From positions 1-33,664 of the forward strand of contig JAUPKF010000012.1 of assembly GCA_030837625.1 (NCBI GenBank): DNA of 33,664 nucleotides. The letters are read 5' to 3'. The notes under the pieces are model-generated. The model was not told where the DNA came from and did no database searches. It was given only the letters and a program-made list of their open reading frames with translations. The translations under genes were made by a program, and so were the position numbers. The stretch comes from Patescibacteria group bacterium (GTDB lineage: Bacteria; Patescibacteriota; Minisyncoccia; Moranbacterales; UBA2206). Below, piece after piece: positions 2,654-9,486 of the stretch. Position 1 is the stretch's first letter; every line of letters begins with the position of its first letter.

Positions 2654-4760
2654 TGTTTAGATCCGTTGAATTATTATCTTCTTCTTTTATAACTGGATTA
2701 TTTGTCTTGGCGCCCTCTTTCTCTCCAATGGTAACTTCGGATTCTTCCGTCTTACCTTCACCTTCACCAGAATTTCCCACGTCATTATCCTCTGATTCAG
2801 TCAAAAAAATTTCTCCTCCCAAATCCGACACCCCTACAGGCCCATTTGTATCAGACAAAACAATTTGACCAACAATCAGTTTCTCAATTTCTTTCAGCAT
2901 CTCTGCCAATTTTTTTTCTTCCTTTTCTTTCTTCATTTCCAAAATATCAAGCAAAATGTCGTCGTCTATTGTCTTATCGTTCGCGTTTTTTATCATTCCC
3001 AAAAATTCCAAAAATACCGGGTTGCACACGGATTCTTTTTTCTTTTTATCCACTTTTTCTCCGTCAAAGCATTCTTCGTAGGCCAGGAAACGGAAGCTTC
3101 TCATTTCTTTTTTGTCCAGTTTGTTTTCTTCTCCTGGTGTTGCTTCCGGATCAATCCAAATGCCCACTCCGTCAGGAAATCGGGCGAAAGATTTTCCTTC
3201 CGGAAATTCACTGGCTTTCTCATATTTATATATATCCTCGAGCATCCCCATGCCATTGTAAAAAGACAGCGTATCTTTGTCGTTATCCAAAAAGTCTTCT
3301 TCCAGATACACCACCAAGCGTTTTCCTCCTGCGATTTCAGTGTCCCTTGCGTTATCTTCGGAAATTATTATCTTTTCACCTTGGCTATTTTTGAAATACC
3401 AGCCAGAAACATCCACTTTTCTTTCGGAAATATTGAAAAGCTCTATCCATTCCCCTCCGGGCTTTTTCGCGCTGTCATCTCCCAAAGAATTAGCCACAAA
3501 CTCGTTCATCACCACCGGCGAGAGATTGGCCGCACCCGGCGTGCCATAATTGTTTCCATCCGCACTGTCCCAATACGTGCCATCATTGCAATTGCCGCTG
3601 ATACAGGTGTGCCAACTGGCCGAAAGCGTTCCATCACCCGGAATATCTTCCCGCTCCATGGATTGATATAATCCTTCGCAAACTCCATTCTTATCGTTAC
3701 ATCCGGCCGGCCAGGTTGAATTTTTCCACGCGGTATCAATCGTGATATTATTTTCATTCTGCAAAATCAAATCCTCTCCTGTTTGCAGCAGGCTCATATT
3801 GGAAACATGGGTATACCCTTCATCCTTGTCCAAATCGCCATCTAAGTTTATGGCTGTTTCGTCGTATTTTTTCTTCGTAATTAAAAAATATCCACTGGCT
3901 TTTATGCTGTATCCGCTAGGAATTTCAATATGCCCGCCAACGCCTGATCCGCCATGGACGATGTTCCAGTTTGAGATATCAATATCTTCGTTTGTCATAT
4001 TACGAAGCTCGATCCATTCATCGTTGTCATTCCCGCTGTTTCCCATCCACATAATTTCGTTTATTACAACATCACCTTCGCCTTCCCATTCTCCGGTTTT
4101 GATTTCTATACCATCGGCGCTTGGATCGGCCAGTTCTTCATCCCAAAAACCCAAGGAATTGTCGATGAAATCCGTTTGCCAGGCGGTAAATTTAAAATTG
4201 AACTCGCAAGTTTCATCTTCCAGCGTTTGAGAAGAATCCGCCGGAAGTTCCAGAACAAATGTCCAGTCATCGCTTTCGGCCGGATCAAGGATTAATGAAT
4301 TGACCATCACTGGTGGAACCGGAGAAATGATACTTCCCATATCAAAATCCTCAAGCGAAAGCTTATCATAAACCACGGTGGAATTTTTTTTAGCCGTAAG
4401 CGTCAACGCCTCGCACAAATCTCCATCATCTGTTTTCAGATATTTCACTTTATACTGAAAAGGCAAATCTCCCTGATTGGTAAAATCAACTTCCTGCGTG
4501 ATAGCATCGCCCGGCTCCATCGGCTCTGATCCTGTAGTATATCCGAAAGATGTTTGCGTCGCCACTCCGTCTAAGATTCCCGCCGTTACGGAGTTTTCTT
4601 CGCTTTTTTCTTCATCAAAAAAACCGGCGCTAGTCCCACGAATAGTCAAAATCGGGACAAAAAGAGCCACCATCAAAACCGTCACGCCTAACTTATGCAG
4701 CGACCTCGTTATCCTTTTGGTAATTATTGATTTGTATTTACTTTTCTGTTTTCTCCTCAT
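2643..4760 (-). CDS. surface protein with TasA/CalY-like N-domain and two lamin tail domains
   Basis: About 705 residues. A long basic N-terminus with a hydrophobic core (27-41) ends at TSAGFFDEE, a SipW-type cleavage region followed by the Ser/Thr-rich start of a CalY/TasA-like beta domain (about 48-200). Two lamin tail domains (LTD, an Ig-like fold) follow: one from VVINEIMWMG with DEWIELRN (about 231-345), the second from VVMNEFVANS with GEWIELFN (about 418-530). The C-terminal 120 residues are Lys/Glu-rich, possibly coiled coil, then acidic. It lies directly behind the signal peptidase gene and overlaps its end. ATG at 4760 is preferred over the GTG one codon upstream. The likely role is a secreted adhesive or fibre-associated protein processed by the neighbouring SipW; substrate status is inferred from order and cleavage motif. 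Confidence 0.8.
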   Translation of the reverse strand: MRRKQKSKYKSIITKRITRSLHKLGVTVLMVALFVPILTIRGTSAGFFDEEKSEENSVTAGILDGVATQTSFGYTTGSEPMEPGDAITQEVDFTNQGDLPFQYKVKYLKTDDGDLCEALTLTAKKNSTVVYDKLSLEDFDMGSIISPVPPVMVNSLILDPAESDDWTFVLELPADSSQTLEDETCEFNFKFTAWQTDFIDNSLGFWDEELADPSADGIEIKTGEWEGEGDVVINEIMWMGNSGNDNDEWIELRNMTNEDIDISNWNIVHGGSGVGGHIEIPSGYSIKASGYFLITKKKYDETAINLDGDLDKDEGYTHVSNMSLLQTGEDLILQNENNITIDTAWKNSTWPAGCNDKNGVCEGLYQSMEREDIPGDGTLSASWHTCISGNCNDGTYWDSADGNNYGTPGAANLSPVVMNEFVANSLGDDSAKKPGGEWIELFNISERKVDVSGWYFKNSQGEKIIISEDNARDTEIAGGKRLVVYLEEDFLDNDKDTLSFYNGMGMLEDIYKYEKASEFPEGKSFARFPDGVGIWIDPEATPGEENKLDKKEMRSFRFLAYEECFDGEKVDKKKKESVCNPVFLEFLGMIKNANDKTIDDDILLDILEMKKEKEEKKLAEMLKEIEKLIVGQIVLSDTNGPVGVSDLGGEIFLTESEDNDVGNSGEGEGKTEESEVTIGEKEGAKTNNPVIKEEDNNSTDLNNEW

Positions 4761-5304
4761 CACCTTCTTTTTCCCCGCGTTTTTTAATTCTTCTTCTGTA
4801 ATCCAACTTTAACAAAATTTCCTTTTTTATCTTCTGCGCTTCGTCATAAATTATGATCACCGCCGGCACGATCACAATCAGCACGAATCCAACCGGTTTT
4901 TGCGCCGCCGCTACGGCATAGCCGACATATGGCGCGCCAGTAATCAACTTTCCAATTATCTCCCCCTGACTGACTGTTTTTTGGTCGGGTGAATTGTTGG
5001 CATCGCCTTTTGTCACATAGGCTTTTTTTCCATCGACTTCTTTTATCTCAAATATCCTGTGCGTCGTCGGCGTTTTGCTCTTCCCGGATTCTCCGAAAGT
5101 AACGATATCTCCTACTTTATATTCCGCCGCCGGTTTCACCAAAATCACGCTTCCCGTCCTGATCGCCGGCTCCATCGAACCGGAAAGAACCACCAACGTC
5201 TTCATCCCGCCCACCGAAAAAACCGAAAGCACCAGTGTCAGGGCGATCACGGCAATCACCGCCAGAATCAGGTAATATATAATTTTGAATATTTTTGAAA
5301 ACAT
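4738..5304 (-). CDS. sipW: SipW-type signal peptidase I
   Basis: A membrane-bound serine peptidase that removes signal peptides from exported precursors. Taking ATG at 5304 gives 188 residues. A transmembrane helix spans about 7-30. SGSMEPAIRTG carries the nucleophile Ser43. THRIFEI carries His82, where canonical bacterial signal peptidase I has Lys, so it is the archaeal/ER/SipW type. GDANNSPD supplies the third conserved Asp. A second membrane span (about 137-153) and a highly charged tail follow. A TTG at 5343 would add 13 residues; neither start has a clear ribosome site. It overlaps the downstream lamin-tail gene by about 23 bases and sits one small gene from the TasA-like gene, as in Bacillus tapA-sipW-tasA. 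Its natural substrates are probably the three exported proteins beside it. Confidence 0.9.
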   Translation of the reverse strand: MFSKIFKIIYYLILAVIAVIALTLVLSVFSVGGMKTLVVLSGSMEPAIRTGSVILVKPAAEYKVGDIVTFGESGKSKTPTTHRIFEIKEVDGKKAYVTKGDANNSPDQKTVSQGEIIGKLITGAPYVGYAVAAAQKPVGFVLIVIVPAVIIIYDEAQKIKKEILLKLDYRRRIKKRGEKEGDEEKTEK

Positions 5305-5326
5305 AGATTGTATCGAAGATAGTCCG

Positions 5327-5548
5327 CTATTTGTTACTCCCAAAAACCGCTTCCATCATTTTTTTTCTCTCCTCCATGGCACACTCTGGACAGTAGCCAT
5401 GACTGTCCTTATTGATAGGACTTTCCACTTCTCCCATATCCTTTTCACATACAGAACAAATTTTCCTGACTTTATATGTTCTTTTATCTTCTTTTTCGCT
5501 TCTCACCGGCTTCTCCGCCGGCATTTGGTTAAAATTAGTTCCCTCCAT
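5327..5548 (-). CDS. small zinc-ribbon-like protein, 73 aa
   Basis: The family is not recognised. A disordered N-terminal half is followed by a likely metal site: CSVC at about 31-34 and CPEC about 20 residues later, typical spacing for a zinc ribbon. The C-terminus is a charged helix (MEERKKMMEAVF). There is no signal peptide. It is the first gene after the promoter-containing gap at 5549-5693, and its 3' end reaches into the region of the alternative TTG start of the signal peptidase. Its position suggests a regulator or assembly helper of the export operon; this is inference only. Confidence 0.6.
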   Translation of the reverse strand: MEGTNFNQMPAEKPVRSEKEDKRTYKVRKICSVCEKDMGEVESPINKDSHGYCPECAMEERKKMMEAVFGSNK

Positions 5549-5693
5549 TTTTTTACCCCATTGAATTGTTTCGCTTTAACGAAACACTGCGAAACAGTAT
5601 TCGACCGAGGTTGTTTTATTTTTTTATACTCAAACCCTCACTCCCCCGCCCCTTCAATAAAGAGGCGAGGCAAGAGAATTCAATCAATACGGA
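5549..5693. other. gap between TasA-like gene and the SipW operon
   Basis: Contains a 7-bp hairpin TGTTTCG/CGAAACA (5567-5573 and 5580-5586), with a further partial copy of the GAAACA motif just downstream, and an A/T-rich tract. No convincing -35/-10 pair is visible, so it is unclear whether the sipW operon is co-transcribed with the TasA-like gene. Confidence 0.4.
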
Positions 5694-6683
5694 TTATAAA
5701 TCAGTGTCGTAATAATCAATCATAGCTGTTTCAAACAGATATGACGCTCCGTGCCAGCCTGTCATGTTAGTTTCATTCCAGTCAGATGCTAAAATTACCC
5801 AAACCTTAGCATTTTCTACTGAGTTATTCAGATCAATAGCCTGACCTGACACACTGAAAGATCCAGTACCATCAGTAGTAAATGATCTTATGGCTGATGT
5901 ATCTGTTCCAGAATATGGATTAGTACCAGTTACTAACACATAGTTAGTGTTAACAGCTAGACCCGCAACAGATAAATCATACTTGAAATCTGCATCTTTG
6001 ACCTTATAAGTCAAAACGGCATTGGCGTTTGAATCTTGATCAATGTCATCCCAATCACTCCCAGTTTTGTGAACCATGGTAACAGTATTTGTCAGCTGTT
6101 CAGCAAACAAGCGCATATCAAAAGTCATTGTTTCGCCCTGATACTTGTTGTCATCATTTGTTGATTCCATAGTATAGCTTTGTTCAACTTCCATGTATCC
6201 CTTAGCTGGAATCATACCAAGAAGAACACCATCGCCTGTTTCGCCACCATAAATTTCACTCAAAGTCTTTCCGTCTGCATCAGTATATATGGTTTGAAAC
6301 CAAAGGGGAGATTCTCCCCCTTGCGCATATACCTTAACAGACAAGTCATACACAATTGCGTCTTCCAAATTAGCAACTGTATCTGTGTTGCGTTCATTTC
6401 TTGCTGTCTTAAAATCAGAGAGCTTTTTCCAAACATTAGCAGGGTTTGAGCCAACATTATTAATTTTAAAATTAATATAGTCGGTATATCCAGGTTTCAT
6501 GTCATTAAGAGCATATGGCGCCTGTTCCTTCCAAGTTCCTCCATTGACGTTAATATCAATGGTTCCTGTGGAAATCGTATTCCCCGTTGATGTTTCCGTG
6601 TCATAGAAATACGCCACAGTTCCTCCGATTGCCAACGCCGCGACAGCCGCGATCATCAACAAACTTTTTGTTATATTTTTCAT
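5694..6683 (-). CDS. TasA/CalY-like secreted fibre protein
   Basis: 329 residues. The N-terminus is a short basic segment, a hydrophobic core (8-25) and VAYFYDTETSTGNTIS, the classic SipW-dependent signal of TasA/CalY/camelysin proteins, in which cleavage is followed by F/Y-x-D/S-x-E and then GTIDI. A beta-rich domain spans about 40-200 (MKPGYTDYINFKINN is the conserved 'PG' strand). A second Thr/Ser-rich beta module spans about 215-329 with no recognised name. In Bacillus this family forms extracellular fibres of the matrix. The only signal peptidase gene in the cluster is 350 bases downstream on the same strand. There is no Shine-Dalgarno; the leader is made of repeated AATCAA units. A weak promoter (TTGATT, then GATAAA, about 6739-6768) could drive it. 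Confidence 0.85.
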   Translation of the reverse strand: MKNITKSLLMIAAVAALAIGGTVAYFYDTETSTGNTISTGTIDINVNGGTWKEQAPYALNDMKPGYTDYINFKINNVGSNPANVWKKLSDFKTARNERNTDTVANLEDAIVYDLSVKVYAQGGESPLWFQTIYTDADGKTLSEIYGGETGDGVLLGMIPAKGYMEVEQSYTMESTNDDNKYQGETMTFDMRLFAEQLTNTVTMVHKTGSDWDDIDQDSNANAVLTYKVKDADFKYDLSVAGLAVNTNYVLVTGTNPYSGTDTSAIRSFTTDGTGSFSVSGQAIDLNNSVENAKVWVILASDWNETNMTGWHGASYLFETAMIDYYDTDL

Positions 6684-8937: not shown

Positions 8938-9090
8938 CCATACAAATATACAAATTGCGAATATAAAAACAGTCCCGATAATAATAACGGAACCGTTTTT
9001 ATATGCGCTCATCTCTTTTTAATTGATGAGAGAAAGACAAGGAATCTAGTCTTTGATTTTTTTAGGCTTTCGCCTTTTTGTTTTTGCTTG
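8938..9090. other. intergenic stretch with small hairpins, no gene seen
   Basis: Contains a wobble-paired hairpin (AAAAACAGTCCCG ... CGGAACCGTTTTT, about 8965-9000), a weaker AAAGAC/GTCTTT hairpin before a T-run near 9034-9064, and AGGC/GCCT with T-runs. None can be assigned to a gene with confidence. Confidence 0.4.
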
Positions 9091-9379
9091 TCCCCCACCA
9101 TTTAGGCTTTTAGACTTTTCTCTATCCTCTTCCGGAGCTCAATCAATCCTCTCTTATGCCGTTTCAATTGTTTTTCTCTTTGAAAAGCATCGTCCTTGGA
9201 GAAAAAAGCCTCATAATACCTTACTTCCCATGGACGTTTGTCCTTGGTGTAAGTTGACTTTCCTGAATTATGTTCCTCTAACCTTTTTCTCAAATCGCCA
9301 GTACAACCGATATAAAAAGAATCTTTCTTTTTACTTTTAATCAGATAAACATAATACATAAAGCCTAAATGGTGGGGGA
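9091..9379 (-). mobile_element. candidate GIY-YIG element: gene bounded by perfect 20-bp inverted repeats
   Basis: TCCCCCACCATTTAGGCTTT (9091-9110) is exactly complementary to 9360-9379. The enclosed open frame starts at the base next to one repeat (ATG 9357-9359), and its stop codon TAA (9102-9104) lies inside the other. The unit is therefore repeat-gene-repeat with no spare sequence. The outer ten bases and the flanks (ATCCCCC... on one side, ...GGGGGACAAG on the other) match the 125-bp element at 7259-7383. No target duplication is obvious. Confidence 0.6.
9102..9359 (-). CDS. GIY-YIG domain nuclease, single-domain, 85 aa
   Basis: A compact GIY-YIG fold protein. YVYLI (3-7) gives the first strand and FYIGCTGDLRKRLEEHNSGK the second, with the catalytic Arg in RKRL. 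RYYEAFFSKDDAFQREKQLK holds the conserved Glu of the family helix. The length is normal for YhbQ/URI-type singletons. These are predicted to cut one DNA strand; cellular roles of the singletons are poorly known. There is no Shine-Dalgarno; the leader is the inverted repeat itself. The last codons and the stop are also repeat sequence, so the gene is physically part of the repeat element, unlike a bystander gene. Host-repair function is the alternative. Confidence 0.85.
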   Translation of the reverse strand: MYYVYLIKSKKKDSFYIGCTGDLRKRLEEHNSGKSTYTKDKRPWEVRYYEAFFSKDDAFQREKQLKRHKRGLIELRKRIEKSLKA

Positions 9380-9486
9380 TAAATTTATTTTTATTTTTGT
9401 TTTATCCCCTACCGTCTTTATTCAATTTCTTAAATACAAACAGCAAGGGACAATACAGTATACACTCCCCTCCTAATTACTATTTA

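Follow-up and report, generated by a model that had tools for sequence, protein, structure and literature searches.

A GIY-YIG nuclease gene enclosed by perfect inverted repeats, a candidate minimal mobile element of Patescibacteria

Intervening sequences (IVSs) that carry an S23/23S_rRNA_IVP ORF are known from the rRNA of Salmonella, Leptospira and Coxiella (PMC4990558). For the Coxiella IVS, cleavage by RNase III has been shown and heptamers lie upstream of the ORF; the mobility of IVSs and the role of their ORFs are discussed as hypotheses (PMC4990558). GIY-YIG ORFs in rRNA insertions of CPR bacteria, none of them intron-like, were described by Tsurumaki et al. 2024 and placed outside the homing context; the study covers rRNA genes and treats these ORFs as minor exceptions to homing (PMC11270868). 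In a text search, the same article (PMC11270868) proved to mention neither inverted repeats nor hairpins nor RNase P. No description of inverted-repeat-flanked GIY-YIG units in CPR was found in the literature searched, with subscription papers and preprints outside its scope.

The window analysed here is the whole stretch of 33 664 nucleotides of contig JAUPKF010000012.1 (assembly GCA_030837625.1), from a patescibacterial genome of 967 kb in 31 contigs. The nearest named relatives of the gene under study belong to Candidatus Moranbacteria. At positions 9091-9379, a GIY-YIG ORF lies inside a perfect 20-bp inverted repeat, 289 bp from end to end (table 1), the plus-strand sequence TCCCCCACCATTTAGGCTTT (9091-9110) being the exact reverse complement of AAAGCCTAAATGGTGGGGGA (9360-9379). 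This bears out a preliminary description, made from the letters alone, of a GIY-YIG gene enclosed by such a repeat; the gene is on the minus strand. As also described there, the ATG (9359-9357) abuts the arm ending at 9360, the TAA lies within the opposite arm and no Shine–Dalgarno sequence is present upstream of the ORF. The unit is intergenic, with no rRNA around it according to Rfam. Its arms form a perfect stem in RNA by folding prediction, and the stem of the unit is predicted for single-stranded DNA and RNA with z values of -6.2 and -7.5. A search of the host genome with the arm sequence detected no further copy of this arm pair; a second unit, on contig C18, has a different pair of perfect 17-bp arms. 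Elsewhere in the window, on the minus strand (4738-6683), the translations alone suggest a signal-peptidase-like ORF (4738-5343) adjoining an ORF for a TasA/camelysin-like secreted protein (5694-6683).

Table 1. Features of the GIY-YIG unit and its surroundings (positions of the window).
Feature	Position	Strand	Remarks
Inserted segment, whole	9089..9382	-	294 bp; delimited by comparison with the empty site of G001, a genome of the same genus; borders exact within a few bases' alignment ambiguity
Upstream (5') arm	9360..9379	-	TCCCCCACCATTTAGGCTTT in ORF sense, ending directly before the ATG
GIY-YIG nuclease ORF	9102..9359	-	85 aa, MYYVYLIKSKKKDSFYIGCTGDL..., ATG to TAA
Downstream (3') arm	9091..9110	-	holds the stop codon 9104-9102
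GGTAGGGGATAAA motif	9401..9413	-	about 20 bp outside the 5' arm; like the element's own end GGTGGGGGATAAA

The protein matches the Pfam GIY-YIG family PF01541 with an E-value of 5.5e-18. The residues Y5, Y16, G18, R26 and E62 (catalytic-type Y, YIG, R and E) are invariant in 15 relatives, and the nearest solved folds to the AlphaFold2 model (pLDDT 85.8) are the UPF0213 protein BH0048 and the branched-DNA nuclease Slx1, I-TevI also being matched. The motif, the Arg and Glu residues and the alpha/beta fold of the GIY-YIG superfamily are all present, and the protein consists of the catalytic domain alone, with no separate DNA-binding domain through which specific ends could be recognised. Stand-alone proteins of the UPF0213/Slx1-like type are closest to it by sequence and fold. 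Slx1 cuts branched DNA; neither mobility nor flanking inverted repeats are known for UPF0213/Slx1-like proteins. No known transposase family (DDE, HUH, serine or tyrosine) was detected, GIY-YIG-type domains alone being found, and PADLOC gave weak, marginal matches to the candidate PDC-S14. A phage or plasmid origin was considered and rejected: the GIY-YIG matches are remote only. Over 15 pairs of copies, dN/dS is mostly 0.05–0.3, values indicative of purifying selection on the protein; the pair L078/L080 gives 0.66, and the ORF of L080 stops early, in a copy that may be decaying.

GIY-YIG relatives are present in 49 of the 55 relatives and in 238 of the 286 genomes of the class, which are incomplete MAGs in a sample of relatives, not a census. 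An arm score of at least 13 was obtained for 107 of the 196 non-redundant GIY-YIG genes read with their flanks, mostly from Patescibacteria. When the left flank of one GIY-YIG gene was combined with the right flank of another (8000 trials), this score was reached in about 1.4 per cent and a score of at least 20 in four; the inverted repeat of the window is therefore not due to chance. Repeats do not accompany every gene of this class: about 80 of the 189 related GIY-YIG genes of the protein tree set have no arms, so that arms are not required for every relative. About half of the GIY-YIG singletons sampled can be classed as mobile-type units. One armless gene, on contig C3 of the host (L002, 1385-1820), lies between a partial 5' half of tRNA-Asn, broken by two palindromes of about 30 bp, and an intact tRNA-Asn. 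In three genomes (L030, L031 and L048), perfect or near-perfect 32-bp palindromes (GTCTGGCTACGCCAGATCTGGCGTAGCCAGAC) occur upstream of the GIY gene, beside tRNA-Cys; they form a separate palindrome family without a tie to the gene ends.

The detailed set comprises 103 units shorter than 345 bp, in which the median length is 296 bp for the unit and 20 bp for the arms. The arms are perfect in 65 units, the stop codon lies within the right arm in 76, and an SD-like motif is found at -18 to -4 in three. The outer ends mostly read (A/T)CCC...GGG(T/A). Arm families include CCCCCACC (that of the window), CCCACACC, CCCCTCAC, CCMGCAC, CCCxGTTA and CCCGGTAGTG. The arms differ strongly between lineages and their families follow the protein tree, which points to co-evolution of the protein and the ends.

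In a genome of the same genus (G001, locus L221), the flanks of the unit align by blastn to positions 1491-1533 and 1534-1661, which abut exactly, the 294 bp of the inserted segment being absent; the left match is short (43 nt), though the site is supported by the conserved synteny, with the upstream CAP gene present at 80 per cent amino acid identity. Empty sites, a check suggested at the outset, were thus found for the window unit and were aligned for seven others (L042, L080, L020, L026, L078, L003 and L024), mostly from related species and not from one population. The L020 insertion is absent from six genomes; for L078 and one L024 site, the empty site is elsewhere within the genome that carries the filled one. 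The L003 unit splits a MazE/AbrB-family gene, whose rejoined halves exceed the Pfam cut-off and which is intact in three relatives, and the L026 unit took the place of the last codons of the upstream gene.

Several genomes carry more than one copy. L078 and L080 are 95.5 per cent identical within unrelated flanks, and L061 and L064 are 87 per cent identical; the copies of genome G061 (94.5%) have the 4-bp direct repeats TGTG and TAAG, respectively, and those of G317 (98.9%) sit in two pilin-like genes. At locus L296 of G317 (contig C27, reverse complement, around 450, 1210 and 3060), three GIY-YIG units, two of them 98.9 per cent identical, lie in frame in three neighbouring pilin-like ORFs, of which only one is matched, weakly, by Pfam N_methyl. 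They sit at a GF(T/S)-type cleavage motif, which is rebuilt, the GIY C-terminus reading ...LPLTG/FTLIE. At L133 (1261-1274), a right end, a 2-bp spacer and a left end follow each other (...AGGTGTGGGGGT-TG-ACCCCCACACCT...), an arrangement that could be a tandem or circle-type junction.

Taken as the general marks of a mobile element, an empty site in a relative and copies at different, unrelated loci identify the window unit as inserted, mobile DNA. The minimal mobile element envisaged in the preliminary description is strongly supported: second copies exist, and a search for distant orthologues at the same locus without the repeat found none. That the units are ordinary host GIY-YIG genes of the UPF0213-like type, standing between terminator-like or regulatory inverted repeats, is hardly credible. 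UPF0213 does provide the nearest solved relative, and inverted repeats are common in these genomes. However, the arm scores are far above those of the mismatched controls, the position of the arms with respect to the start and stop codons is fixed, empty sites are exact, one host gene is split, and other insertions are found within genes for rRNA, tRNA and RNase P. At the window locus this reading is refuted by the empty site of G001, and a chance inverted repeat or a terminator pair is ruled out by the controls together with the empty sites.

The two arms of a unit pair by Watson–Crick rules at 96.7 per cent of 2090 arm pairs. Between related elements, 149 positions showed a change in both arms and 50 a change in one, where about 18 double changes would be expected from independent changes, an estimate made from these counts for compared pairs that are not themselves independent. 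G-U mismatches number 21 in the sense and 21 in the antisense strand, and no excess of G-U over A-C was found in the sense strand of the 2090 arm pairs. Since G-U is equally frequent on both strands, the constraint probably does not act on the transcript alone, and a constraint on RNA only is not needed to explain mismatches without strand bias. We infer that the arm data are better explained by a function as DNA hairpin or by one arm being copied from the other.

Direct repeats of at least 3 bp flank 23 of the 103 units (against 3.6%). Repeats of at least 4 bp accompany 12 of 29 units of the CCCACACY subfamily and eight of 15 of the CCCCTCAC subfamily, with a control of about 4 per cent; in the subfamily of the window there is one in 10, near chance, and in most of the empty-site cases too the direct repeat is missing. 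A universal target duplication is not supported, as the frequency varies by subfamily. Joining chemistry may differ between subfamilies, some of which often have such repeats while others lack them.

Like IS200/IS605 and RAYT/REP systems, the units combine one nuclease gene with hairpins at the ends, little or no target duplication and an end-like target; unlike them, they encode a GIY-YIG and not an HUH tyrosine nuclease, and a single perfect terminal inverted repeat spans the gene. As in insertion sequences with terminal inverted repeats, the arms are at the borders of the inserted segment, but no known transposase is present. The comparison with RAYT transposases and REP sequences, made in the preliminary description, is retained as a loose analogy. 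Its stricter form fails, the protein being a GIY-YIG and not an HUH transposase, and the window arms having no further copy in the genome. Dispersed ORF-less palindromes with unit ends are rare, one each in three of 13 genomes and not hundreds as for REP, and REP-like high-copy palindromes were not found in the genomes searched. As the arms always flank the gene itself, the unit is IS-like or IVS-like rather than REP-like. In the right flank of L052 (1920-2090), an AbrB-type gene contains a short palindromic insert without an ORF, CCCTATTAAATTGTGGTACCCCACATTATTTAACAGGG; its ends are those of the CCCxGTTA subfamily, and it looks like a non-autonomous derivative.

The existence of ORF-less palindromes with the same ends, including that inside abrB, would suit a passenger or MITE-like unit that depends for its movement on an unrelated transposase acting in trans, while the GIY-YIG protein serves, for example, defence, repair or the exclusion of competitors. 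GIY-YIG proteins are not among the known transposases, and the weak PADLOC matches could be read in the same direction. We nevertheless consider this improbable: the GIY-YIG ORF is the one protein common to all units and is under purifying selection between copies, the ORF-less copies are rare, the PADLOC matches are marginal, and the arm families differ between lineages in step with the protein tree.

The sites of insertion are not random. A tRNA gene is touched by 11 of the 103 units, all in sense and all at tRNA-Ala or tRNA-Val; in 10 of the 11, the first base of the tRNA is 2-3 bases before the right end of the unit, so that the right arm supplies the tRNA start. Rfam places further units in 16S or 23S rRNA (L016, L106, L119, L120, L152, L162, L168, L158, L122, L127, L105 and L085). 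RNase P RNA is entered at P3, in sense at L189, L128, L139, L169 and L172 and in antisense, at the same site, at L140; this position, like 16S helices 6, 10 and 17 and 23S helix 25, was assigned by eye from conserved sequence. Helix 25, the site of the L105 and L085 units, is a classical IVS site. Rfam matched no group I or II intron in the window region or, for the rRNA and RNase P loci covered, at the units, and this explanation was rejected. One 16S rRNA gene (L152, 2601-2885) contains a group I intron in addition to, and separate from, its GIY-YIG unit.

A start codon follows within 15 nt downstream of 21 of the 103 units (random 6.5%) and on the opposite side of one. In 36 units, the left border coincides with the end of a sense ORF (random 5.4%). 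Overall, insertions cluster at the 5' ends of tRNA-Ala and tRNA-Val, rRNA hairpins, RNase P P3, operon junctions and start codons. These counts place the units where transcripts pass and harm is small. Orientation relative to host genes is nearly always sense, a bias that could stem from selection or from a step through RNA rather than from a mechanism purely at the DNA level. Target types are shared within clades of the protein tree, target choice following the protein lineage. The left flanks ahead of the direct repeat often have a G-run like that of the right end (tRNA GGGG, GGGGTGTG, GGGGGTAAG), and this likeness suggests that the enzyme recognises its target and its own end alike. Near the window unit, the GGTAGGGGATAAA motif is older than the insertion, since it is also found in the empty site of G001; it is a possible target-recognition motif.

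The window unit resembles rRNA IVSs, short inserts with complementary ends and a small ORF without a good Shine–Dalgarno sequence, and shares with them, through its family, the tips of rRNA hairpins. It differs in that its ORF encodes a GIY-YIG nuclease, whereas the IVS ORF encodes a four-helix bundle. The window unit itself is not in rRNA, though other members are; the family is not confined to rRNA but extends to genes for tRNA, RNase P and mRNA as well as to intergenic positions, and empty sites exist. The CPR rRNA insertions of Tsurumaki et al. have in common with the present units a GIY-YIG ORF, the lack of a group I or II intron, low target conservation and stem-loop positions, and are very probably the same elements. 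Outside rRNA, 25 of 30 S23/23S_rRNA_IVP genes from the same order (PF05635, L265-L294) are bounded by inverted repeats with a score of at least 11, against 8.8 per cent of controls. Their arms seem to be made of tandem repeats of about 7 nt and recall the heptamers of the Coxiella IVS.

The units share the catalytic fold and the selfish nuclease gene of I-TevI, I-BmoI and the free-standing Seg/Mob endonucleases, but contain neither an intron nor a DNA-binding module, have palindromic ends of their own and occur as copies at non-homologous sites. A homing-type selfish gene would make a site-specific double-strand break in the empty allele and be copied in by homologous repair of the host; its arms would matter only after insertion, as an RNA stem that is excised by RNase III and so leaves the host transcript functional. 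The clade-specific targets (tRNA-Ala/Val 5' ends, 16S helix 6 and RNase P P3) would agree with this, as would the many units without a direct repeat, which homing predicts. GIY-YIG homing endonucleases are indeed known. IVSs with inverted ends occur in 23S rRNA helices 25 and 45 (PMC4990558). Homing cannot, however, yield copies in one genome without flank homology, some with different 4-bp direct repeats. If the arms served in RNA only, G-U mismatches should outnumber A-C mismatches in the sense strand, which is not seen, and the antisense RNase P insertion at the same site as the sense ones is also at odds with homing, as is the position of Tsurumaki et al. on the GIY-YIG ORFs of CPR rRNA (PMC11270868). 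On balance we find a homing origin unlikely.

Sequence comparison establishes insertion, multiple copies, bounded ends, paired evolution of the ends, selection on the protein and non-random sites, and indicates that selection or copying maintains the arms as well as the protein. The window unit is probably an autonomous DNA element of minimal size, encoding a structure-specific nuclease that would recognise both the palindromic ends of the unit and targets that look like them. The proposed element, of about 280-310 bp, would carry a single gene, for a GIY-YIG nuclease of about 85 aa, between terminal inverted repeats that are perfect and about 20 bp long. Its arms would form a 20-bp hairpin when the DNA is single-stranded, or would be bound in the duplex as a palindromic pair, and the nuclease would cut at the base of this structure as well as at end-like targets, namely G-runs or CCC motifs, hairpin tips and tRNA 5' ends starting with GGGG. 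The unit would then join at the cut target, with no duplication or, in some subfamilies, one of 3-5 bp, the joining being done by the host or by the enzyme. In the host transcript, the arms would fold as a closed stem, which would make insertion into structural RNAs or operon junctions tolerable; RNase III probably cleaves this stem, as with rRNA IVSs, while the GIY-YIG gene would be expressed from the same transcript. A nuclease acting on its own hairpin ends, as we infer, would fit the perfect covarying arms, the unbiased mismatches and the likeness to Slx1.

We lean slightly towards seeing in these units an undescribed class of autonomous transposable elements, in which an 85-aa GIY-YIG nuclease alone would act as the transposase on perfect palindromic ends. 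If so, at less than 300 bp, they would be among the smallest autonomous elements known, and, if the nuclease is the mobility enzyme, another catalytic fold would join the list of transposases. GIY-YIG singletons, which are widespread in Patescibacteria, have so far had no assigned role. This offers a rule for annotation: where an rRNA, tRNA, RNase P or abrB/mazE gene of these bacteria looks split or odd, such an insertion may be the cause. Since S23/IVP genes of the same genomes also lie in inverted-repeat units, the bacterial rRNA IVS would, if the GIY-YIG class is real, be one outcome of the same lifestyle, and the mobility of rRNA intervening sequences and the role of their ORFs would become directly testable.
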